A stretch of 21,550 nt of DNA from a virus. The translations under genes and the position numbers were made by a program. The stretch covers positions 1-21,550 of the IMG/VR virus record IMGVR_UViG_3300036819_000157; one strand, 5' to 3'. This document shows, one piece after another, positions 2,624 through 18,032 of this stretch; position 1 is the stretch's first letter, and the number at the start of each line of letters is the position of its first letter. Under the pieces are notes generated by a model. The model did no database searches. It saw only the letters and a program-made list of their open reading frames with translations, and was not told the DNA's origin.

Positions 2624-2740
2624 GCGCCGGCATGCGCACCCCTGAACAGCCCTGGGGCTTTAAGTTGCCTACTGGCACGTGGCTGGCACGGCCCTGCGGC
2701 GGTCAATCCGAAAACGGCCTCTGACCTGCACTAATGCTAG

Positions 2741-2770
2741 TCGGGACGACAGGATTCGAACCTGTCGCGC
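2741..2770 (-). other. tRNA 3'-end fragment (attP core)
   Basis: On the minus strand this reads as a T-arm with loop TTCGAAT in stem ACAGG/CCTGT, followed by acceptor strand CGTCCCG and discriminator A. No D-arm or anticodon arm precedes it, so it is not a tRNA gene. It is the expected piece that would restore the 3' end of a host tRNA on integration. The implied 5' acceptor CGGGACG would suit tRNA-Pro among others, but the identity cannot be fixed here. Confidence 0.8.
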
Positions 2771-2779
2771 TGAGGGCTA

Positions 2780-2797
2780 TGATCATGGCCATGATCA
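2780..2797. repeat. 18-bp perfect palindrome in attP
   Basis: TGATCATGGCCATGATCA equals its own reverse complement. It lies 10 nt from the tRNA-derived core, between the core and the right arm sites. It is a candidate dimer-binding site for an excision factor, repressor or integrase. Confidence 0.65.
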
Positions 2798-2950: not shown

Positions 2951-3232
2951 ATGAACCGACAAGCCACCGAGCCCCGCGCAGTAGCGGAGTACTTCGGGCC
3001 GGGGACGACCTACCTGCCGTTCAGCAACGCCCCCGGCGATGGTGTCGTGATCCGGCGCGATCACGCCGTGGTCCGGTCCGTGTTCCGCGCCCGATGGACC
3101 CGCTACCCATGGCGTAAACGCGTCTCGGGCAACTGGGCGCGTCAAGCTAAGGCCGAAGGGATCACCCACGTTGCACTACAGGTCGGTCCGCGAATCGCTG
3201 ACTTCCGCATCGAGGAGCTGACCCGGCGATGA
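2951..3232 (+). CDS. Hypothetical basic protein coupled to integrase, 93 aa
   Basis: Not recognised. The ATG at 2951 has AGGAG about 11 nt upstream (near 2935), while the longer open frame to 2804 runs through the att arm. The protein is basic in the middle (VVRSVFRARWTRYPWRKRVSGNWARQAKAEG) and ends IADFRIEELTRR. No HTH is evident. Its TGA overlaps the integrase ATG as ATGA, so the two are translationally coupled and expressed together. That invites a role in integration, immunity or control of integrase, but the sequence does not show which. Confidence 0.7.
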   Translation: MNRQATEPRAVAEYFGPGTTYLPFSNAPGDGVVIRRDHAVVRSVFRARWTRYPWRKRVSGNWARQAKAEGITHVALQVGPRIADFRIEELTRR

Positions 3233-4422
3233 CCGCCAAGGGAAGACGGACCTTCGGCAGCGTCCGCAAGCTGCCCTCGAAGCGGTGGCAAGCCCGGTAC
3301 ACCGGGCCAGATGGCCGTACTTATCCAGCGACCAGGAACGGCCAGCCCCTGACCTTCGACACCCGCCGCGACGCCGAAACGTGGCTCGCGGAGCGGCAAA
3401 CCGAGATCCACCACGACCAGTGGAAGGCGCCCGCGGCCACGAAGCCGGCGGAACTCGAAGCGCCGACGCTCCGCGAGTACTCCACCAGTTGGTTAGCGAT
3501 GCGACCCCTGGCGGTGCGCACCAAAGATCACTACGCGGCGCTGCTGGCCAACCACGTCTACTCGACCTTCGGTGACACCCTGCTGGCCCACATCGACACC
3601 CGCAGTGTCCGCAAGTGGCACGCCGGCCTGGCAACGAAAACCGGCCCTACCGCACAGGCGCACGCCTACGCGCTGCTGCGCACCATCCTCAACACCGCGG
3701 TCGACGACGAGTGGATCACGGTCAACCCGTGTCGGATCCGTGGTGCTGGTCAAGCGAAACGCCAGAGCCCCGAATCTGTGCCGGCGACTCCGGAGCAGCT
3801 GGCCACGCTGGTTGCCGCGATGCCACCACGGCACCACCTGCTGGTCCTGTTCGCCGGTTTCTGTGCACCCCGGTTCGGTGAGTTGACCGAGCTGCGCCGC
3901 AAAGACGTCAACGTCGCCACCGAGGAGTTGAGCATCAGCCGCGCGGTGGTCAAGACCCGTGGCAACGGTCGTCTGGTGAAGAAGACGAAAAGTGAACGGT
4001 CGCGGGTTGTGGTGATCCCGCCGCACCTCATGCCCGCCGTGGAGGCGCACCTGCGGGATTTCGCCGCACCAGGCCCCAACGGGTTGTTGTTCCCCGCGGT
4101 GCTCAGCGGCGGGCACCTCTCAGAGTCGACGGTGCGCAAACAGTTCCGCAAAGCGAAGCTGGTTGCTGGTCGACCGGATTTCCGGTTCCACGATCTACGG
4201 CACACCGCCGGCACGTGGGCATCGCAGCTGGGTGCGTCGTTGAAAGAGGTCATGGCCTACCTCGGGCACACCACGGTGTCGGCCGCGATGCGCTACCAGC
4301 ACGCTGACCCGGAACGCCGGCAGTGGCTCGCCGGCAAGCTGTCCGAAGAAAGAGCTGCGACTGTCACCCCGATCGAAGCGGCCCCCAGCGCCGCTAAGAA
4401 GCCACGGAGGCGGTCCGCATGA
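3229..4422 (+). CDS. int: Tyrosine integrase (site-specific recombinase), 397 aa
   Basis: It would catalyse integration and excision at the adjacent attP by tyrosine-linked strand exchange. Residues about 8-62 form an arm-site-binding N-terminal domain (FGSVRKLPSKRWQARYTGPDG), about 80-170 the core-binding SAM-like domain, and about 190-370 the catalytic domain. Catalytic residues visible are R215 (CAPRFGEL), a Lys near 251-254 (KKTKSE), H321 and R324 (HDLRHT), H347 (LGH) and the nucleophile Y356 (MRYQH). The length is usual for actinophage integrases. A Pro precedes R215 where Leu is common. The C-terminus KKPRRRSA is encoded by a boundary sequence repeated at the end of the next gene. Confidence 0.97.
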   Translation: MTAKGRRTFGSVRKLPSKRWQARYTGPDGRTYPATRNGQPLTFDTRRDAETWLAERQTEIHHDQWKAPAATKPAELEAPTLREYSTSWLAMRPLAVRTKDHYAALLANHVYSTFGDTLLAHIDTRSVRKWHAGLATKTGPTAQAHAYALLRTILNTAVDDEWITVNPCRIRGAGQAKRQSPESVPATPEQLATLVAAMPPRHHLLVLFAGFCAPRFGELTELRRKDVNVATEELSISRAVVKTRGNGRLVKKTKSERSRVVVIPPHLMPAVEAHLRDFAAPGPNGLLFPAVLSGGHLSESTVRKQFRKAKLVAGRPDFRFHDLRHTAGTWASQLGASLKEVMAYLGHTTVSAAMRYQHADPERRQWLAGKLSEERAATVTPIEAAPSAAKKPRRRSA

Positions 4423-4424
4423 AC
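4398..4424 (+). repeat. Gene-boundary repeat, copy 1
   Basis: A 27-nt sequence identical to 4592-4618. It encodes the last residues of integrase (KPRRRSA), contains the ribosome site GGAGG, and ends in the overlapping ATGA plus AC of the next gene. Weaker relatives (GGAGACGATCCGCATGA, GAGGTACTCCGCATGA) occur at about 5286-5303 and 6320-6334. Confidence 0.9.
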
Positions 4425-4616
4425 CACGTCACTGCCAAGAGCGGACGAGGCAAAATCCACCGCGCTGGTCAAGAGACCGGCAAGCTGACTCCCGAATGCC
4501 AGAGCCGCACCAGCTCAACTGAGTACGTGCCTTCGCTGCTGGCCCTCAATTGCCGTAAATGCGTCAACAACCTGGTTCGCCCCAGCGCGCCGAAGCCACG
4601 GAGGCGGTCCGCATGA
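4419..4616 (+). CDS. Putative zinc-binding small protein, 65 aa
   Basis: The ATG overlaps the integrase stop (ATGA). H14, C27, C45 and C48 fall in the pattern KIHRAG...LTPEC...LALNCRKC, which resembles the small phage and actinobacterial zinc proteins with H...C...CxxC; this is a pattern resemblance only. The C-terminus PKPRRRSA copies the integrase C-terminus because both are encoded by the same 27-nt boundary repeat. The gene may therefore have entered, or been duplicated, by recombination between boundary sequences. Function is unknown. Confidence 0.65.
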   Translation: MNHVTAKSGRGKIHRAGQETGKLTPECQSRTSSTEYVPSLLALNCRKCVNNLVRPSAPKPRRRSA

Positions 4617-4618
4617 AC
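4592..4618 (+). repeat. Gene-boundary repeat, copy 2
   Basis: Identical over 27 nt to 4398-4424. A short match CCCCAGCGC lies just upstream of both copies at slightly different distances. Here it joins the 65-aa gene to the 53-aa gene and supplies the ribosome site and ATGA overlap. The two copies bracket the 65-aa gene exactly. Confidence 0.9.
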
Positions 4619-4774
4619 GCCGCCGAGCACGCCAGTGAGATAACGATCACCTGCCCACATTGCGACGTTGCGATCTCCGTCCCCGAGGGTCTGAGGATCC
4701 AACCCGGGGTGTGCCCCCGATTCGCAGCCCGACTAGCGGAGGTCTATGGCCCTCCTCTCGGTGGCGAATCATGA
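4613..4774 (+). CDS. Putative zinc-ribbon remnant protein, 53 aa
   Basis: The ATG at 4613 overlaps the previous stop. Residues 11-20, TITCPHCDVA, give a clear CPxC knuckle (C14, C17). A second half appears at C34 (GVCPRFAAR), but the expected fourth Cys is Phe, so a normal two-knuckle ribbon is incomplete. It may bind zinc with another ligand or as a dimer, or be a decaying copy. It ends GGES and overlaps the next ATG by ATGA. Function is unknown. Confidence 0.65.
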   Translation: MNAAEHASEITITCPHCDVAISVPEGLRIQPGVCPRFAARLAEVYGPPLGGES

Positions 4775-4944
4775 AAGGGAAACTCACAGCCCGGCAACTC
4801 TTTATTAGCGACGCTGCGTTCGTGGCTTTCATATGTTTTCTAGTTCTCGCCCTCGCGCTGCCGGGTTTCATAACAAGATTGTTGTGCGGGCTGGCGGCGA
4901 TGTTTGCCGTGTTGTCCCTGGTTGCTGTGAGGGTCGGATCATGA
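4771..4944 (+). CDS. Small two-TM membrane protein, 57 aa
   Basis: The start is coupled to the previous stop (ATGA). After a basic start MKGKLTARQL there are two hydrophobic segments: about 11-34 (FISDAAFVAFICFLVLALAL) and about 36-54 (ITRLLCGLAAMFAVLSLVAV). The loop between them is only a few residues, so it is a tight hairpin in the membrane. The DNA here is visibly less GC-rich than the flanking integrase gene. The role is unknown; size and topology would suit a holin-like or exclusion protein, but there is no lysis gene near. Confidence 0.68.
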   Translation: MKGKLTARQLFISDAAFVAFICFLVLALALPGFITRLLCGLAAMFAVLSLVAVRVGS

Positions 4945-5303
4945 GCGAGATTAAGAATCCTAGTGCTTGCCTGCTCGACATTCTTGAGGTGTTCATCCAG
5001 GCGCACGGCGAGGGAGTTGAGTTAAGTGGCTATCCCCTCGCGGTGAGGTCGAGACGTGGGTTCGCACAGGTTTACTACAAGGGTCTTATCCCCCTTGAAG
5101 CCGCCGGCTGGCTCACCTCACGGTGGCAGCCGGGGCCGTACCCGCGTCGTCGCCTGTATGAACTTTCGCCGCTGGGCCTGATCGAGGCCAGTGAACTTCT
5201 CGACACCTACAGGCCGCCAGGGACTCCGCCGTCTTTGCACCATCGGGTACTCGACGCCATTGACCGCATTAAGAAGTTCGCACGCCGGAGACGATCCGCA
5301 TGA
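4941..5303 (+). CDS. PadR-like winged-helix protein, 120 aa
   Basis: Residues about 11-20 begin a helix and about 47-90, KGLIPLEAAGWLTSRWQPGPYPRRRLYELSPLGLIEASELLDTY, match the recognition helix and wing of PadR/MarR-type proteins (LEAAGWL...RRRLYELSPLG). It likely binds DNA as a regulator, possibly of phage or host genes. The C-terminus KKFARRRRSA is again the RRRSA ending, encoded by a diverged boundary sequence with an ATGA junction. The start is coupled to the membrane-protein gene. Assignment to PadR is by motif reading only. Confidence 0.7.
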   Translation: MSEIKNPSACLLDILEVFIQAHGEGVELSGYPLAVRSRRGFAQVYYKGLIPLEAAGWLTSRWQPGPYPRRRLYELSPLGLIEASELLDTYRPPGTPPSLHHRVLDAIDRIKKFARRRRSA

Positions 5304-5596
5304 CAACGACGATCATGCTGGATATTTGCACTCCAGAAGGCAAAACCTGGTTGGCGGAAGTAACCGGGACAGGCGGCAAGTTCGGTATCGAGCGGGATTT
5401 CGTGAGCGCTGTCAGTAAGAACACATCGAGATCCGGGATGACGGGCACCGCGACTTACATTGTCGACAACGGGGTTTATGAGAGCAACGAAGGCCGATTG
5501 GGGCGCCGCTATTGGATCGTTGAAAACGATGAGAAACGTGAAGTTGAGCGTGACGACGCGTTGGCCTGGTTGAAACGAGGAGCTGAAAGCAAATGA
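5300..5596 (+). CDS. Hypothetical protein, 98 aa
   Basis: Not recognised. It is coupled by ATGA on both sides. The sequence looks like a small beta-rich fold: IMLDICTPEGKTWLAEVTGTGGKFGIERDFV, then TATYIVDNGVYESNEGRLGRRYWIVEND, ending with an acidic/basic helix REVERDDALAWLKRGAESK. No membrane segment or cysteine cluster is present. It sits in the small-gene chain downstream of integrase. Confidence 0.68.
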   Translation: MTTTIMLDICTPEGKTWLAEVTGTGGKFGIERDFVSAVSKNTSRSGMTGTATYIVDNGVYESNEGRLGRRYWIVENDEKREVERDDALAWLKRGAESK

Positions 5597-5913
5597 CTAC
5601 CGAACAGACACCCCCAACCACCGAACAGACACCCCCAAATTCAGTACCCCTTGATGATGACGACTGGGTCGACGCTCTGGACGACGCGCTCACGGCTGCG
5701 CTCCGCGCGCTGGGCTCAGCCGAGGAACTCTTGGGCCCGGTGGCCGAGCTAGGCGGTGCAGGCGGTGCAGCTGATGTCGCATGTGGATACATCAGAGAAG
5801 CAATCCGGCGTGCTCGTCACGAAGTAACCGGCGCGGCGAATAGCGCGTGGCTTATCCAACTGCTCTTCCCTAAGAACCAAAGCTCAGCTGAGCGGCAAGA
5901 GGTCCCCACATGA
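5593..5913 (+). CDS. Hypothetical acidic helical protein with N-terminal repeat, 106 aa
   Basis: Not recognised. The N-terminus has two tandem copies of TTEQTPP, from a 21-nt duplication at 5599-5639. An acidic stretch DDDDWVDALDDAL follows, then Ala/Gly-rich helices (AALRALGSAEELLGPVAELGGAGGAADVACGYIREAIRRARHEV). The body could be a short amphipathic helical bundle. It is coupled by ATGA to both neighbours. Confidence 0.65.
   Translation: MTTEQTPPTTEQTPPNSVPLDDDDWVDALDDALTAALRALGSAEELLGPVAELGGAGGAADVACGYIREAIRRARHEVTGAANSAWLIQLLFPKNQSSAERQEVPT
5599..5639 (+). repeat. Tandem 21-nt repeat, two units
   Basis: ACCGAACAGACACCCCCAA occurs twice with period 21 nt, in frame, encoding TEQTPP twice. 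A recent slip or duplication is likely because the units are nearly identical. Confidence 0.85.
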
Positions 5914-6137
5914 TCGTCACCATTGTTCATCTACTTTGTGAGGCGCCCGGTTGTACTCGTGTGCGGAGCATGAAAAGCGGCGACGAGGAATCGCTGCGAC
6001 GAGACGCCACTCGGAATGGATGGGATTGTAACGGTCGCGATCTTTGCCGTGAACATTCCCCGCGGTCGTCGTCTTGCGGTGGATCGTGTGAAAGGGGAAT
6101 CGTTTTCGGCCCACCTGAATGGAGTCACCGCGCATGA
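5910..6137 (+). CDS. Putative zinc-binding small protein, 75 aa
   Basis: Cysteines at 10 and 15 (LCEAPGCTRVRSM), C40, and C46 with H49 (DLCREH) give the C...C...GW..C....LC..H layout common in small phage zinc proteins; this is a pattern resemblance only. The stretch ESLRRDATRNGWDC would be the helix between the half-sites. The Ser/Cys-rich tail SPRSSSCGGSCERG adds two more cysteines. Both ends are coupled by ATGA. Role unknown. Confidence 0.68.
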   Translation: MIVTIVHLLCEAPGCTRVRSMKSGDEESLRRDATRNGWDCNGRDLCREHSPRSSSCGGSCERGIVFGPPEWSHRA

Positions 6138-6334
6138 GCGACGACGAGGACTTCGACGCCGAAGGTACCTTAGAACGACTTCAAGATTGGATGACTAGAG
6201 AAGGGTACCGAATCTCAGCGAAGTATTGGCTGAGATGTCCACACTGTGGGGTGTTCCTGCCCGGACGCATTTTCGCCAAAACACCACTAGGAATACCGTG
6301 CCGCAATTGCCGAAAGCTGAGGTACTCCGCATGA
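6134..6334 (+). CDS. Zinc-ribbon-like small protein, 66 aa
   Basis: Residues 35-38, CPHC, and 56-59, CRNC, form a classic two-knuckle ribbon separated by 17 residues (RCPHCGVFLPGRIFAKTPLGIPCRNCRKL). The N-terminal 30 residues are acidic and helical (DDEDFDAEGTLERLQDWMTREGY). The C-terminus LRYSA and the junction GAGGTACTCCGCATGA echo the boundary repeat at the integrase end. Probably binds nucleic acid or protein through zinc; the exact role is unknown. Confidence 0.72.
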   Translation: MSDDEDFDAEGTLERLQDWMTREGYRISAKYWLRCPHCGVFLPGRIFAKTPLGIPCRNCRKLRYSA

Positions 6335-6735
6335 TGGATCCACGAATCACCCTTGAGAAGTTAGATGACCTCTACTACATCGTGTACGAAGTCGCGACGG
6401 GACTAGAGATCGGGGGCGTGATCAAGCGCTACGGGATCCCTCCTCCGGATTTCGAGTGGTGTGCGATGACCCCAGAGAACGCGGCGCACGACGTGTTCAG
6501 TGGGCCCACCGAGGGGGCAGCGGCGACTAAGGAAGAGGCAGCTGCATATCTGCTGCCACTGCTACGCGAGCCGAACATAGAGGGGCGCCCGGGTGACGAA
6601 TACGAAGTTTCCCGCATCGGCGATGAATGTTACGTGTGGAATTCAACCACAAATACAAGCCTTAGCGGAGCGCTAGCTGAGGATGAGGCGAATCGCCGCG
6701 CCGAGGAATTGTCGGTGAACCCCCATGGATCCTGA
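6331..6735 (+). CDS. Hypothetical protein, 134 aa
   Basis: Not recognised. It opens ATGATG, the first ATG overlapping the previous stop. Two similar halves may be present: LEKLDDLYYIVYEVATGLEIGG near the start and YEVSRIGDECYVWNSTTNTSLSG near the end. Each is followed by a helix with EEAAAYLLPLL or EDEANRRAEEL, which suggests an internally duplicated alpha/beta unit. The end overlaps the next gene by 11 nt, a departure from the 4-nt rule in this operon. Confidence 0.66.
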   Translation: MMDPRITLEKLDDLYYIVYEVATGLEIGGVIKRYGIPPPDFEWCAMTPENAAHDVFSGPTEGAAATKEEAAAYLLPLLREPNIEGRPGDEYEVSRIGDECYVWNSTTNTSLSGALAEDEANRRAEELSVNPHGS

Positions 6736-6922
6736 CGAATTCCGCCGTCAGTTGTGCGAGGCACTTCACCTCAAAGACGACGCTAGCGACTACGAAATTC
6801 TGGCGCTGGTCGGAACCGCATACCACTTCTACCTGCTGAACCGACCCGCCGAAGCCGCCCACCCGATCGAAGCCCTCGATATCCCGCTCCCGCAGACAGC
6901 AGAGCTGGGCGACGACGTATGA
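6725..6922 (+). CDS. Hypothetical acidic protein, 65 aa
   Basis: Not recognised. It begins MDPDEFRRQLCEALHLKDDASDYEILALVGTAYHFYLL, a helical N-terminus, and ends with a Pro-rich acidic tail. The start overlaps the previous gene by 11 nt. The end is coupled to the next gene by ATGA. Small size and helical content are all that can be said. Confidence 0.6.
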   Translation: MDPDEFRRQLCEALHLKDDASDYEILALVGTAYHFYLLNRPAEAAHPIEALDIPLPQTAELGDDV

Positions 6923-7176
6923 CCGCGAAGGAACTCAGTGAACCGCAAAGGCGGGCACTACTTGAGATAGCGCGGAACGAAGAGGAGGGTCGTGTCAGCG
7001 TCCCGGATGACCTGCACCTGCGGGTAGTCACTCTGGTCGCGCTGGAGCGACGCGCTTACGTGACGTGCCAGTACGGCGTTACCCGTCCGCGCACTGGCAT
7101 TCCGCAGCGGGTAATTGAGTCAGTGAGCATCCTTCCCGCTGGGCGTTTACAGGCAAACCAACCCAATAAGATGTGA
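6919..7176 (+). CDS. Small winged-helix-like protein, 85 aa
   Basis: It has the look of a short winged helix: ELSEPQRRALLEIARNEEEGRVSVPDDLHLRVVTLVALERRAYVTCQYGVTRPRTGI. The first helix is followed by a recognition-helix-like LVALERRAYV and a wing. This resembles small wHTH proteins seen in actinophages, but the match is by eye. It is coupled by ATGA to the 65-aa gene. The stop is followed by GAGGAGAGG, which serves the next gene. Confidence 0.55.
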   Translation: MTAKELSEPQRRALLEIARNEEEGRVSVPDDLHLRVVTLVALERRAYVTCQYGVTRPRTGIPQRVIESVSILPAGRLQANQPNKM

Positions 7177-7186
7177 GGAGAGGGAC

Positions 7187-7387
7187 ATGACCAGGTTCCA
7201 GGCATTTTTAACCATTCCGGCTTTGGCTGCGGGTGTTGTGACAGCAGTGGCGTGTGTACGAATCGCGCGCCAGACTCAACGGATAGTGGAGGTTCAAGAG
7301 CAAATCTTGATACTCAACGAAAAGCGGGCCGGGGCCCTTCCGCGGGCCGAAGACCTTCCGAGCTGGGCTCGACCGGGGAACGGGTGA
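7187..7387 (+). CDS. Membrane-anchored coiled protein, 66 aa
   Basis: A good ribosome site, GAGGAGAGG, precedes the ATG at 7187. Residues about 4-25, FQAFLTIPALAAGVVTAVACVRI, form one membrane segment with the N-terminus short. The following RQTQRIVEVQEQILILNEKRAG is a short coiled-coil-like helix. The tail LPSWARPGNG is polar. It resembles one-TM spanin- or exclusion-type small proteins in architecture only. It is the only gene in this chain with a free-standing ribosome site rather than a 4-nt overlap. Confidence 0.65.
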   Translation: MTRFQAFLTIPALAAGVVTAVACVRIARQTQRIVEVQEQILILNEKRAGALPRAEDLPSWARPGNG

Positions 7388-7530
7388 GCCAGTGGGAATC
7401 ATTCCCAGATCGGTTTTGCATCGGTGGCGGCGACGGACCCGGTTCAAAAGTCGCCGCCAGCGTGCACTCGACAAAATTTACCCCGCCGGTGGTGGCGGCA
7501 CGGAAGTCTTCCTTAACGAACTGGGGATGA
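7384..7530 (+). CDS. Possible small protein, 48 aa
   Basis: A GTG at 7384 overlaps the previous stop as GTGA and opens a 48-codon frame (MSQWESFPDRFCIGGGDGPG...) ending at 7530. Composition is ordinary and no domain is seen. The coupling pattern is the main argument for it, and the alternative is a 149-nt spacer. Codon usage is less convincing than in its neighbours. Confidence 0.4.
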   Translation: MSQWESFPDRFCIGGGDGPGSKVAASVHSTKFTPPVVAARKSSLTNWG

Positions 7531-7536
7531 AACGGC

Positions 7537-8022
7537 ATGAGCAATGATTATGAGTGGACGAGCGATTATGAGTGGACGGCCGCCGGTGAGTGTGCTCAAG
7601 ACGCGGTGCCTGTCATGGCGTTGTCGGAGGGGGAAAGTGATGACCATGAACCGCGCGTGGTTAGGCGGTTAGGTCCGTACCTGTGGACTAATGTCCTCGG
7701 GAGCATTGTGCCTGCGGCTTTGCATCCGCACAGATATCGACCTTTGACGCCTGCCGAGTGGGATGATTTGGTTCGGCTTTTCCCTGATTCGGTGCCGGTT
7801 ATACCACCGGTTGACCTGCGACTGACGCTGCACGCCGTTTCCGAACACGCAATCGATGGCGCAGGTGAACCATCCCCTGAACACATCGCAGCAGCCATCG
7901 CAGAAGTGGGAACCGCGGGAAGCCCTTTCACCAAAGCCTTAGACCGGCTTTGGTTCGCGTTCGATGATCTTTGTGTCGATGTCTACAACCGTGCACTGGA
8001 CCTAGCCCAGGCCGCCGAATGA
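7537..8022 (+). CDS. Hypothetical protein with repeated N-terminus, 161 aa
   Basis: Not recognised. The N-terminus repeats DYEWT twice from an 18-nt duplication (about 7546-7578). The centre reads VVRRLGPYLWTNVLGSIVPAALHPHRYRPLTPAEWDDLVRLFPDSVPVIPP, and the C-terminal helix is FTKALDRLWFAFDDLCVDVYNRALDLAQ. The acidic tail is coupled to the next gene by ATGA. No signal peptide, membrane segment or known motif is visible. Confidence 0.68.
   Translation: MSNDYEWTSDYEWTAAGECAQDAVPVMALSEGESDDHEPRVVRRLGPYLWTNVLGSIVPAALHPHRYRPLTPAEWDDLVRLFPDSVPVIPPVDLRLTLHAVSEHAIDGAGEPSPEHIAAAIAEVGTAGSPFTKALDRLWFAFDDLCVDVYNRALDLAQAAE
7546..7578 (+). repeat. Short in-frame tandem duplication
   Basis: GATTATGAGTGGACG is repeated after AGC, giving period 18 nt and the peptide DYEWTSDYEWT. 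The two copies are identical, so the duplication looks recent. Confidence 0.85.
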
Positions 8023-8261
8023 TCATGCACCGACCCGCTGATCTTCCAGCCCAGCGACCCCAAGCCGACGCAGACGACGGCCTGAACAAGTTCATGACCA
8101 CGTGCGCTACCACCGTGATCATGGCCGCGTTGCATCGTGTCGGCTTCACCACGGCGCGGGGTGAAGCCGACAACGTCTTCGACCTCGAACTCTTCGATCA
8201 GCCTTTCCGGATCACCGTGGACTGCCACCCGATAGCGACCGAAGCGGAGGTGTCCCCTTGA
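8019..8261 (+). CDS. Hypothetical protein, 80 aa
   Basis: Not recognised. It starts MIMHRPADLPAQ and has a central helix NKFMTTCATTVIMAALHRVGFTTARGEADN followed by VFDLELFDQPFRITVDCHP. It could be a small alpha/beta protein. The start is coupled by ATGA and the end overlaps a TTG start as TTGA. An alternative ATG lies two codons in. Confidence 0.62.
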   Translation: MIMHRPADLPAQRPQADADDGLNKFMTTCATTVIMAALHRVGFTTARGEADNVFDLELFDQPFRITVDCHPIATEAEVSP

Positions 8262-8590
8262 CCTACTACGTTCACTTCCACGATGGTCATTACCACGTAC
8301 TCCGGAAAGACCCAATTATCCGGTTCCTCGACGAGCGGGTCGAAAACCCCTGGATTTACTTCGAAAAGGTCGTCGCCGACAACGTCGCGGCGCTGCTCAA
8401 CGCCGGAGTGGACCCGGAGCGGATCCAAGCGATGGACCACTATCAGATTTGCGTCGCCCACGATGAGCTGCTGCACCGATCCGGCGGCGTGGTCCTCACC
8501 GAGGACGTCATCGCCGAACTCGTGCAGGAAGCGGAACGGGGTTACGACCCCACACAGCTCCGTCCGCGCCCACGCTCAACTGACACATGA
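8258..8590 (+). CDS. Hypothetical protein, TTG start, 110 aa
   Basis: Not recognised. The start is TTG at 8258, overlapping the previous stop (TTGA), with GGAGG about 9 nt upstream. The N-terminus is His/Tyr-rich (MTYYVHFHDGHYHVLRKDPIIRF), then WIYFEKVVADNVAALLNAGVDPERIQAMDHYQICVAHDELL, and an acidic helix. HFHDGHYH could bind metal. A rare TTG start suggests tuned, low or coupled translation. It ends in ATGA with the next gene. Confidence 0.66.
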   Translation: MTYYVHFHDGHYHVLRKDPIIRFLDERVENPWIYFEKVVADNVAALLNAGVDPERIQAMDHYQICVAHDELLHRSGGVVLTEDVIAELVQEAERGYDPTQLRPRPRSTDT

Positions 8591-8799
8591 CCGACGACGT
8601 CCCGTTGATCGACCGAGACACCATCCGCACCTTGCCGGTCACGATCGACATCATGCAGCTGGTCAGGATCTACGGTCTGAGCCCGGAGTTTGTGCTGTGG
8701 GGTTGTGAGTTGTGCGAGTACGCGGACTCACAGCCCGGTGGAGCGTCCGCGTTGCGGTCGATTGAGGAACACATGAAGACAGAACACGGCGCGACGTGA
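8587..8799 (+). CDS. C2H2-type zinc-finger-like protein, 70 aa
   Basis: C40 and C43 (WGCELCEY) with H62 and H67 (EEHMKTEH) give C-x2-C-x18-H-x4-H, a C2H2-like finger with a long centre. The helix SALRSIEEHMKTEH carries the His pair, as in true fingers. The N-terminal 38 residues, LIDRDTIRTLPVTIDIMQLVRIYGLSPEFVLW, look helical and could be a second module. It is coupled to the 110-aa gene by ATGA. A DNA- or protein-binding role is inferred only from the motif. Confidence 0.68.
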   Translation: MTDDVPLIDRDTIRTLPVTIDIMQLVRIYGLSPEFVLWGCELCEYADSQPGGASALRSIEEHMKTEHGAT

Positions 8800-8819
8800 A
8801 CGCGCCGGACCACCCCTAG

Positions 8820-8884
8820 ATAGCGTGCGCTGGTGCACAACAGTTGGGCGCATAGCGTGCGCTTGGTGCACAACAGTTGGGCGC
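8820..8884 (+). repeat. Tandem repeat duplicating -10-like box and GTG start
   Basis: Two copies of a 32/33-nt unit: ATAGCGTGCGCT, then GGTGCAC, then AACAGTTGGGCGC. The second copy has one extra T. Each holds a TANNNT box (TAGCGT at 8821-8826 and 8853-8858) and, 6-7 nt on, a GTG (8833 and 8866). The two GTGs are 33 nt apart and in the same frame. Confidence 0.8.
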
Positions 8885-9129
8885 TGTTGCGGGTCGCGAA
8901 AGCGTTCCTACGGACACCGAATCACGACGTCCACGATCTTGTCCAGGTCGCCAAAGTCGACCCCGGCGACCTGGACAAGATGATCCCCCGGATGGTCACC
9001 GAAGGGTGGTTAACGACCGCCGACGGGTGGATTTTCCAACTGACCCCCACCGGCCGTGCTGCCTTGACCACAATGCTTACCCAAGCCCGAACGTTTAACA
9101 ACAACAGACAAGGCGGCGCGACTCCATGA
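8833..9129 (+). CDS. Winged-helix-like DNA-binding protein, 98 aa (or 87 aa)
   Basis: From residue about 19, LLRVAKAFLRTPNHDVHDLVQVAKVDPGDLDKMIPRMVTEGWLTTADGWIFQLTPTGRAALTTML reads as a MarR/PadR-like winged helix: helix, recognition helix (DLDKMIPRMVTEGWL), and wing (WIFQLTPTGRAAL). Two GTG starts 33 nt apart (8833, 8866) are equally good because the start region is duplicated. Each follows a TANNNT box by 6-7 nt, so both could be leaderless. No Shine-Dalgarno precedes either. It ends coupled (ATGA) to the phosphoesterase gene. Confidence 0.66.
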   Translation: MHNSWAHSVRLVHNSWALLRVAKAFLRTPNHDVHDLVQVAKVDPGDLDKMIPRMVTEGWLTTADGWIFQLTPTGRAALTTMLTQARTFNNNRQGGATP

Positions 9130-15519: not shown

Positions 15520-15953
15520 TAAGCCCCGACGAAAAGTACGAAGCGATCATCATGTCCTCAGTGATCCTGGCGCACGCCCGCGCCGGTGCATGGTCCGAAG
15601 CCGGCGCCGGAATCACTGCCCTCGCGGAACGGTTCGACGGGGCCGGCATCCAGATCATGATCACCGGCCTGGCCGACACCATGATCTACCACCAGGGTGG
15701 TCACAGGTCAGACGACGTCCCGGTCCAGCCGGTGTGGTTCGACCTCGACGGCGCCATGGACGACGCCGACGGCGTACCGCGCCCCGAAATCGTGTGGGCC
15801 GGACGGTTCATTGCTGCTCGTGCGGCGCTGGATGAGGACGCGTGCGCTGCGCTGGTCAACTCCTGTGCCCATGACCCGGAGGCCTACTCCCAAAACGTTT
15901 TCGCGGTCGTGGAGGTCGCCGCAACCACACTGAACGCGCTGGATGCGTCGTGA
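15516..15953 (+). CDS. Hypothetical protein, 145 aa
   Basis: Not recognised. The GTG at 15516 overlaps the previous stop. The protein is mostly helical: EKYEAIIMSSVILAHARAGAWSEAGAGITALAERFDGAGIQIMITGLADTMIYH, then VWFDLDGAMDDADGVPRPEIVWAGRFIAARAALDEDACAALVNSCAHDPEAYSQNVFAVVEVAATTLNAL. Two helical halves joined by an acidic linker are plausible. It lies just before the exonuclease gene and is coupled to it (GTGA), so an accessory role in recombination or replication is possible. Confidence 0.72.
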   Translation: MISPDEKYEAIIMSSVILAHARAGAWSEAGAGITALAERFDGAGIQIMITGLADTMIYHQGGHRSDDVPVQPVWFDLDGAMDDADGVPRPEIVWAGRFIAARAALDEDACAALVNSCAHDPEAYSQNVFAVVEVAATTLNALDAS

Positions 15954-16951
15954 CCGCGCCAGCACGGGTCCGACCGGTGAACCCGTGGTCGATGCCCACC
16001 GCGACGCTGGTGTTGCCAGCGGGCGCACCCCGGGAGGAATGGCTAGCCGAGCGCCGCAAAGGCCTCGGGTCCTCCGATGCGGCGCTGCTCATGGGCGTCG
16101 GTTACGCCGAGGACAGCGAATACGGGCTCTGGCTCGACAAAACCGGCCGGGCTGGCCACGGCGAACAAACGGAAGCGATGCGGCGCGGGACGTGGCTAGA
16201 ACCACACGTCGTCGATTTTTTTTCCGAGAGAACACGGCTGACCGTTCGCCGCTGCGGGCTGCTGGCGAATAAAACGAACCCGATCCTGCGGGCCACTCCG
16301 GACCGGCTCACCGGTGACGGCGGGATTGTCGAAGTCAAAACGATAGGAGCGTGGGCGAAAACTGGTCCCGAATGGCGCAATGGCATCGCTCGGCACGCGT
16401 ATGTGCAGGCGCAATGGCAGTTAATGGTGTCCGGTAGAACACACGCCTGGTTCGCTGCTTACGCCCTCGATCAGGAACCGATGATCCGCGGTCCGGTGGA
16501 GCGCGACGAGCCACTCATCGAACGGATGGCCAAACGCGCCGAAGTGTGGTGGGAGTCCTACATCACCAAAGACACCCCGCCGCCGGTGGATCTGGCAACC
16601 ATCACCGACGAGGAGATCTCGCTTCGCTGGCCTATCGAGGCACCAGGCAAAGCTGTGGAAGCGGAGTGGCCGGCGTACCTACGGCAAATGCTCGACGAAC
16701 GCGCCGAAGTAAAAGCCACCGAGAAGGAAGCGAAACGGCGGTCCGACGAGATCGACAAAGCAATCAAGGTGATGGCCGGCGATGCCGAAGCGATCCTGCT
16801 CGGCGAACGGCCAGTTGTCACCCTGAAATCGCAGCGGAACAACCCATCCGTTGACCCCTCGCTCGAAACCGACCACCCCGAGATTTGGGAGACCTACATT
16901 CGTCGCGGCACCAGCCGCCGGATCCGCATCGTGAAGGGCTGGAAAGCATGA
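15950..16951 (+). CDS. YqaJ-like viral recombinase exonuclease, 333 aa
   Basis: It is the likely 5'-3' exonuclease partner of RecT. Motifs of the YqaJ/lambda-exo (PD-(D/E)xK) fold are present: WLAERRKGLGSSDAA (R36, S42, D43), GTWLEP (E84), D118 in RATPDRL, E128-V-K130 (GIVEVKT), and the helix with YVQAQWQ (Q153, Q157). A charged coiled segment (about 245-275) and a C-terminal domain follow. The length is usual for the family. The start overlaps the previous stop (GTGA). The 76-aa gene and RecT follow directly. Confidence 0.9.
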   Translation: MTAPARVRPVNPWSMPTATLVLPAGAPREEWLAERRKGLGSSDAALLMGVGYAEDSEYGLWLDKTGRAGHGEQTEAMRRGTWLEPHVVDFFSERTRLTVRRCGLLANKTNPILRATPDRLTGDGGIVEVKTIGAWAKTGPEWRNGIARHAYVQAQWQLMVSGRTHAWFAAYALDQEPMIRGPVERDEPLIERMAKRAEVWWESYITKDTPPPVDLATITDEEISLRWPIEAPGKAVEAEWPAYLRQMLDERAEVKATEKEAKRRSDEIDKAIKVMAGDAEAILLGERPVVTLKSQRNNPSVDPSLETDHPEIWETYIRRGTSRRIRIVKGWKA

Positions 16952-17178
16952 CCGGCTACGACAAAGACAATCTCCCTTCCGTGGACTGGGCCGAATACCG
17001 CAAGACCGAGACCACCCGCATGTGGGGTCCGGTCCCGGGCCCGTTCACCGTGGAAACCAAGGAAGGCGAATACGAGCTACCCGCTGACTGGCTGGGGTTC
17101 ATCGCGTTAGACGCAGACGGTTACCCATACCCCGTCGACGCCAGCGTGCACGCACAATCATATGAGCGTGTCGCATGA
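16948..17178 (+). CDS. Hypothetical protein between exonuclease and RecT, 76 aa
   Basis: Not recognised. It reads MTGYDKDNLPSVDWAEYRKT, then MWGPVPGPFTVETKEGEYELPADWLGFIALDADGYPYPVDASVHAQSYERVA: a small acidic beta-like domain with many aromatics. Coupled by ATGA to both the exonuclease and RecT genes, it is probably made with them in equal amounts. A role as an adaptor or modulator of the recombination pair is inference. Confidence 0.7.
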   Translation: MTGYDKDNLPSVDWAEYRKTETTRMWGPVPGPFTVETKEGEYELPADWLGFIALDADGYPYPVDASVHAQSYERVA

Positions 17179-18032
17179 GCGGCACCGAAGTGGCCACCGT
17201 GCAGGGTTCGCTCGCGGTACGGCCTGACCAGGTCGATTGGACCGACCAGCAGCGAGCCGGCCTCGCGCAAATCAACATCGAGGAAGCACCCCGCGGCGAC
17301 CAGCTCGTGTTTCTCCACGTCGCCCAAAGAATGGGCTTGGACCCATTTAATAAAGAAATTTATATGATTGGCCGCTGGGATAGTTCATTGCAGCGGAAAA
17401 AGTGGACCATTCAAGTCGGCATCGATGGATTCAGGTCCAAAAGTGAGGAACACCCAGAATTCGGCGGAATCGAAGGACCGGAATGGTGCGGCCCCGATGG
17501 ACAATGGCGTGACGTGTGGACCGCCGACGAACCACCCGTCGCTGCCCGTTTCATCGTCTACCGCAAAGACTGGGAACGGCCCGCCGTTGGTGTCGCCCAC
17601 TACCGCGAATACGTGCAGAAAAAGAGCAACGGCGAGCCCACCGGTATGTGGGTCAACATGCCAGCGAACCAGCTGGGGAAATGCGCCGAAGCATTAGCTC
17701 GTCGCAAAGCATTCCCGCGGCGACTCGGTGGGGTGTACATCGACGAAGAATTGCAGCATTTGAATAACCCAGAACCGTCTCCAATCGTGATCGAATCACA
17801 GCGTGAGGAAGTGATCCGCGAACCCGACTGGGACACGCTGATCCACGACGCGGAATGGGCTGGTAACCGTGAGGAACTAGCCAAAATCTGGACGTTAGCC
17901 AAAGGAGTGAGGCGCAACGACACGGCGCTGCTGAACAAAATCGCCGAAGCCGGCGAACGCATAAAGGCGGCCGCCGAACGCGCACCCACCACCCAGCAAC
18001 CCGACCCCGTCACCGAAGAACCGGGCGAATAA
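17175..18032 (+). CDS. recT: RecT/Bet single-strand annealing protein, 285 aa
   Basis: It anneals complementary single strands produced by the exonuclease. Family features read by eye are DQLVFLHVAQRMGLDPFNKEIYMIGRW, WTIQVGIDGFRSKSEEH, ARFIVYRKDWERPAVGVAHYREY, and MPANQLGKCAEALARRKAFPRRLGGVYIDEEL, in the order typical of RecT/Bet. The C-terminal 75 residues are helical and acidic. The length is close to the family norm. It lies three bases from the third ParB-fold gene, downstream of the exonuclease and the 76-aa gene. Confidence 0.93.
   Translation: MSGTEVATVQGSLAVRPDQVDWTDQQRAGLAQINIEEAPRGDQLVFLHVAQRMGLDPFNKEIYMIGRWDSSLQRKKWTIQVGIDGFRSKSEEHPEFGGIEGPEWCGPDGQWRDVWTADEPPVAARFIVYRKDWERPAVGVAHYREYVQKKSNGEPTGMWVNMPANQLGKCAEALARRKAFPRRLGGVYIDEELQHLNNPEPSPIVIESQREEVIREPDWDTLIHDAEWAGNREELAKIWTLAKGVRRNDTALLNKIAEAGERIKAAAERAPTTQQPDPVTEEPGE

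Follow-up and report, generated by a model that had tools for sequence, protein, structure and literature searches.

Short conserved boundary sequences between modules have been proposed to contribute to phage mosaicism through general recombination (PMC3029335). Because shared sequence is missing from most phage mosaic joints (PMC3029335), cases in which a boundary sequence can be recognised to either side of a gained gene are informative and offer some of the few views of gene entry into compact operons. Island3 encodes an orphan, gp68, that has no counterpart in Brujita and whose C-terminal 18 residues are a repeat of the gp67 terminus (Pope et al. 2011, PMC3029335); upon re-checking, the ends of gp67 and gp68 share 58 nt at 91% identity, the sequence is present as a single copy in Brujita (gp66) and the flanks are 96–98% identical. 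Equally, in LRRHood, compared with Cali, 29-bp direct repeats flank 1.35 kb containing four genes (PMC3029335). The start-associated sequence of Cluster K mycobacteriophages has a 13-bp consensus, GGGATAGGAGCCC, with 11–19 copies per genome, mostly at genes more than 50 bp apart (PMC3203893).

Here, a 21.5-kb virus record from IMG/VR, in the following called the window, has been analysed, which looks like a provirus of actinobacterial origin. Probably, a boundary of approximately 40 nt at the integrase end was duplicated by recombination when a 65-aa gene was gained, which would have created a unit removable between the two copies. As in Island3, a small orphan gene, unrelated to its neighbour, repeats the terminal codons and nucleotides of the upstream gene, both tails are basic and Arg-rich, the start of the orphan overlaps the upstream stop and a relative possesses a single copy without the gene. 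On the other hand, 27 nt at 100% (approximately 36–42 nt related) are found here as compared to 58 nt at 91%, and the upstream gene is an integrase. Furthermore, while the empty site between Island3 and Brujita is exact, the relative available here is approximately 62–70% identical, lacks a second small gene as well and does not continue after its single copy with the sequence that follows copy 2. Classing the locus as of the Island3 gp68 kind thus appears reasonable, with the empty site being inexact.

The LRRHood/Cali case resembles the window in having a short direct repeat near gene ends around extra DNA and a single copy in relatives, but encompasses 1.35 kb and four genes according to its description in PMC3029335. 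As for the proposed boundary sequences, a short conserved inter-module sequence that could permit gene swaps is present, although its occurrence here is limited to two proviruses, one of which has it in duplicate. The locus is a further example of a known phenomenon and introduces no new principle; it adds a case located at an integrase end, with a repeat that is both coding tail and ribosome site, and the provirus concerned also encodes RecT. The preliminary description had also drawn a parallel to the mycobacteriophage start-associated sequences, with which the repeat has in common a Shine-Dalgarno core that closely precedes the ATG of non-structural genes. This parallel does not hold with respect to consensus, copy number and position, as the Cluster K consensus has no match within 2 mismatches in the window, two exact and two loose copies (in a record that is a fragment) contrast with 11–19, and the copies reside within ATGA gene overlaps including the upstream coding tail and not in gaps above 50 bp.

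Gene content of the window

The tyrosine integrase (397 aa; 3229–4422, + strand; Pfam PF00589, 6e-22; phrog_1, 8e-66) precedes a series of small genes, mostly linked through ATGA overlaps. Its C-terminus extends beyond the conserved domain with a basic tail that ends in VTPIEAAPSAAKKPRRRSA and the stop codon; VTPI and mostly basic integrase tails are also seen in the approximately 53% identical relatives L015, L016 and L018. The 65-aa gene (4419–4616, +), situated between the two repeat copies, encodes a protein with the basic tail PSAPKPRRRSA and with His and Cys residues for possible zinc binding. Homologues of this protein were found neither in Pfam and PHROGs nor in phage records or eight related records, so that no donor was found. 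Downstream follow a 53-aa gene with a CPHC motif (4613–4774, +), a hydrophobic 57-aa gene (4771–4944, +) and a weakly PadR-like gene (4941–5303, +) that terminates in RRRSA.

Single-protein scans of IMG/VR with the integrase, the 65-aa and a 121-aa protein gave no match, and the sole match in a single scan of genome contigs was a Desulfobacteraceae integrase. With the region as blastn query, no match was obtained in phages, and plasmids gave only a 55-bp match near a tRNA-like site. Further downstream, a YqaJ-family exonuclease (15950–16951, +; PF09588, 1.9e-21), the candidate partner of RecT, and a RecT single-strand annealing protein (17175–18032, +; PF03837, 4.5e-25) are encoded; the latter is a candidate for mediating recombination between short repeats.

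An identical boundary at two successive genes

The identical stop/start junction noted in the preliminary description at two successive gene boundaries is confirmed: 27 nt at the integrase end (4398–4424) recur at the end of the 65-aa gene (4592–4618), in direct orientation and 194 nt apart, with 0 such matches expected in shuffles. No third copy with up to 3 mismatches was found elsewhere in the window. The codons for KPRRRSA and the stop, GGAGG (4406–4410 and 4600–4604, eight bases ahead of the ATG at 4419 and 4613, respectively) and the ATGA overlap (4419–4422 and 4613–4616) are all contained within the repeat. Towards the left, the similarity extends to CCCCAGCGC at 4383–4391 and 4580–4588 across a 3-nt in-frame gap, the integrase copy being one codon longer (PSAAKKPRRRSA as compared to PSAPKPRRRSA), so that the extended copies span 4383–4424 and 4580–4618 (both +) and approximately 36–42 nt are related. 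Taken alone, this extension beyond the exact core is weak by shuffle (15/400); it is credited because of its in-frame match to the relative L110 introduced below, not because of the shuffle score.

The direct orientation, the spacing of 194 nt and the MN start common to both small genes could be read as a local tandem duplication by slippage or unequal exchange, in which case the 65-aa gene would descend from a copy of its neighbour by divergence or truncation. However, no alignment is obtained between the 65-aa and 53-aa proteins, and to the right of ATGAAC the two copies have no similarity (anchored extension score 0). As the two genes are not homologous, a tandem gene duplication is improbable, and the simple tandem event that the preliminary description had considered as a counter-explanation is disfavoured.

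Constraint on the junction itself has equally to be considered, as a GGAGG approximately 8 nt before ATGA forces an Arg-rich tail upon the upstream protein, with the remainder of the likeness being fortuitous or selected as a basic RRSA terminus. In fact, Arg-Arg is the commonest final dipeptide at overlapping junctions of the fetched loci (89/2068), which is plausibly the protein shadow of GGAGG ribosome sites within the upstream gene, and a non-homologous gene of L110 possesses an RRSA tail written with other codons and followed by GTGA. Against such convergence, the identity is 27/27 including third positions, with a chance of approximately 6e-8 in the whole window and 2e-11 over junction pairs; SA ends only 29 and RR..SA only 2 of the 2068 junctions, and the likeness runs past the ribosome site. 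Up to the ATGA, the longest junction identity is 25 nt here as compared to at most 17 nt in 1739 pairs from other fetched loci. Convergence is therefore very improbable as an overall explanation, and for the main pair it appears refuted by the extent of identity, while it may be the source of the shorter junctions at 5286–5303 and 6326–6334.

A syntenic relative with a single boundary

Among 103 stretches with a degenerate RRRSA-stop/ATGA junction in IMG/VR (one match per listed contig) surfaced IMGVR_UViG_3300035704_000397 (L110, fetched again as L202), which proved to be a syntenic provirus; it is one metagenome contig and the sole informative relative, and the comparison of boundaries is based on blastn and codon alignments. 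The integrases are 51% identical in amino acids and 62% in nucleotides overall, with 52% at third positions. At the integrase-end boundary, on the other hand, 38/39 nt are identical in addition to one codon gap: L110 reads GCCCCCAGCGCC and, after the gap, AAGAAGCCACGGAGGCGTTCCGCATGA, where the window reads GCCCCCAGCGCCGCTAAGAAGCCACGGAGGCGGTCCGCATGA, with one mismatch and one codon indel. The integrase end is as well conserved as the active-site stretch RPDFRFHDLRH, and the boundary is better conserved than both flanks, namely the integrase (62%) and the 57-aa gene (approximately 70%).

In L110, the boundary is present as a single copy at the integrase end and the 65-aa gene is absent. A 16-codon ORF follows, and synteny resumes with the homologue (62–64% aa identity) of the 57-aa gene at 4771, the third gene downstream of the integrase in the window; beyond it, the genes at 6725, 8833 and 9126 have homologues in the same order. 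A single copy in combination with the absence of the 65-aa gene indicates that the repeat most likely marks the point where a gene was spliced in or could drop out. Furthermore, no gap is needed to align copy 2 to the integrase end of L110 (87.5% over 40 nt), so that the tail of the 65-aa gene derives from an integrase end. The proposal that genes are inserted or removed between homologous junctions is consequently supported for the 65-aa gene by the single copy in L110, but the 53-aa gene is missing there too. Equally, the expectation that a related phage lacks exactly the segment between the copies is borne out for the 65-aa gene and not for its exactness, as a 16-codon ORF takes the place of the 53-aa gene and L110 is thus no allele exactly one repeat unit shorter.

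The distance between integrase and phosphoesterase varies among relatives, with 4.7 kb in the window versus approximately 0.7 kb in L018/L191 (one relative, 53% integrase identity), and this variation points to a gene-exchange region behind the integrase. The compared intervals are 4422–9126 in the window, 973–1682 in L018 and from 8179 in L202; they contain small genes, mostly without known relatives.

Similarity to L110 is also present in the left flank at 22–2085 (tRNA-Met, an HTH gene at 1843–2097 and their neighbours), so that the two proviruses either share sequence beyond the integrase module or occupy comparable host positions while differing in their tRNA fragments. Fragments resembling tRNA 3'-ends, likely attachment sites, are located upstream of the integrase at 2740–2790 (- strand) in the window and near 6765–6895 in L202; the tRNA parts differ between the two, while GCAGGTCAGAGGCC.TTTT follows both.

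Possible course of gene gain and loss

The boundary would serve simultaneously as the last codons of the upstream gene, specifying its basic tail, as Shine-Dalgarno site and as overlapping start, and these three joint roles make translational coupling of the next gene to the integrase likely. In one illegitimate crossover, the 65-aa gene could have been joined to a site immediately ahead of the boundary of another molecule, whereupon the gene would be set between two boundaries with its 3' end fused in frame to the second copy of the integrase end. The product would be a coupled gene unit of 194 nt from start to start, flanked by direct repeats, which copy-to-copy recombination would excise cleanly, with the 53-aa gene then being coupled to the integrase. 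Such a later loss might proceed via annealing at the repeats, for which RecT and the YqaJ exonuclease would be suited given the short repeat length. We infer recombination as the cause of the duplication, RecT-type annealing as the responsible activity and a gain of the 65-aa gene; as the 53-aa gene is absent from L110 too, a loss may also account for the difference. Against the recombination model, homologous exchange would have had a stretch of merely 27 nt to act on, which is short, and a single illegitimate event would give the same result.

A transposon with target-site duplication, as in MPME-like elements, has been considered and rejected, as no terminal inverted repeats are present inside the direct repeats; inverted repeats in the 65-aa unit are restricted to pairs of 8–9 nt at chance level that are not located at the two ends of the unit.

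Looser copies and occurrence at other loci

The looser versions previously reported downstream are present, albeit to a different extent. At 5286–5303 (+), the end of the gene at 4941–5303, RRRSA and the stop are encoded by CGGAGACGATCCGCATGA with 2 mismatches, while at 6326–6334 (+), within the 6320–6334 stretch reported before, YSA and the stop are encoded and only TCCGCATGA is retained. A relationship of the third junction to the first two is suggested by its alignment score, reached by 1–2 of 500 shuffles; the score of the fourth is indistinguishable from chance.

These copies raise the question of a reusable boundary element, with tail, ribosome site and ATGA forming a recurrent joint at which gene bodies were swapped at several places. 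All four occurrences of TCCGCATGA in the window (0.27 expected) are at overlapping stop/start junctions, while of 829 comparable junctions elsewhere, 2 have TCCGC ahead of ATGA, a background that leaves out junctions fetched by the motif itself. Furthermore, the gene after the 57-aa gene ends in RRRSA in the window (5303) and, with other codons and GTGA, in GRRSA in L110 (4695), although the bodies of these genes look unrelated (P approximately 0.001 for two such tails). On the other hand, copies three and four are short and weak, the motif is absent from the AAA-ATPase relatives G001–G004 and its frequency in IMG/VR, with one match per listed contig, corresponds to background. A reusable element is accordingly considered unlikely. 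Likewise unlikely would be an exchange of gene bodies upstream of the joint, at the integrase end, the 65-aa gene and the gene after the 57-aa gene, with the RRSA tail and the coupled start staying in place.

A general occurrence of the motif at gene boundaries of actinophages or other phages, which the preliminary description had suggested to search for, was not observed. The 18-mer CGGAGGCGGTCCGCATGA was found in four IMG/VR contigs, two of which are copies of one sequence with a matching frame that is not gene-like, while the other two contain real RRRSA-stop/ATGA junctions in unrelated genes. The 103 degenerate stretches are estimated to be near the chance background for the size of the collection, and with the junction as blastn query only matches of 17–22 nt, none significant, were obtained in GenBank phages.

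Gene-end repeats of such extent are rare, though not unique: among the ORF-end pairs surveyed across 222 loci, a set that counts the window twice since one locus is a stretch of it, only eight pairs reach 23/27 matching bases, Island3 and the window included. Repeated gene-start boundaries are also seen at other fetched loci: in L026 (- strand, with ends at 4083 and 4297), two copies of ACCGAATGGAAGGAGGT.....ATGTCTGA are separated by 214 nt, and L153 has three copies of GGAAACCCCATGA (6957, 7163 and 7339). In L170 (- strand, 12525 and 13106), two putative ORF ends 581 nt apart are alike in 25/27 nt and encode RRPRPQ tails.
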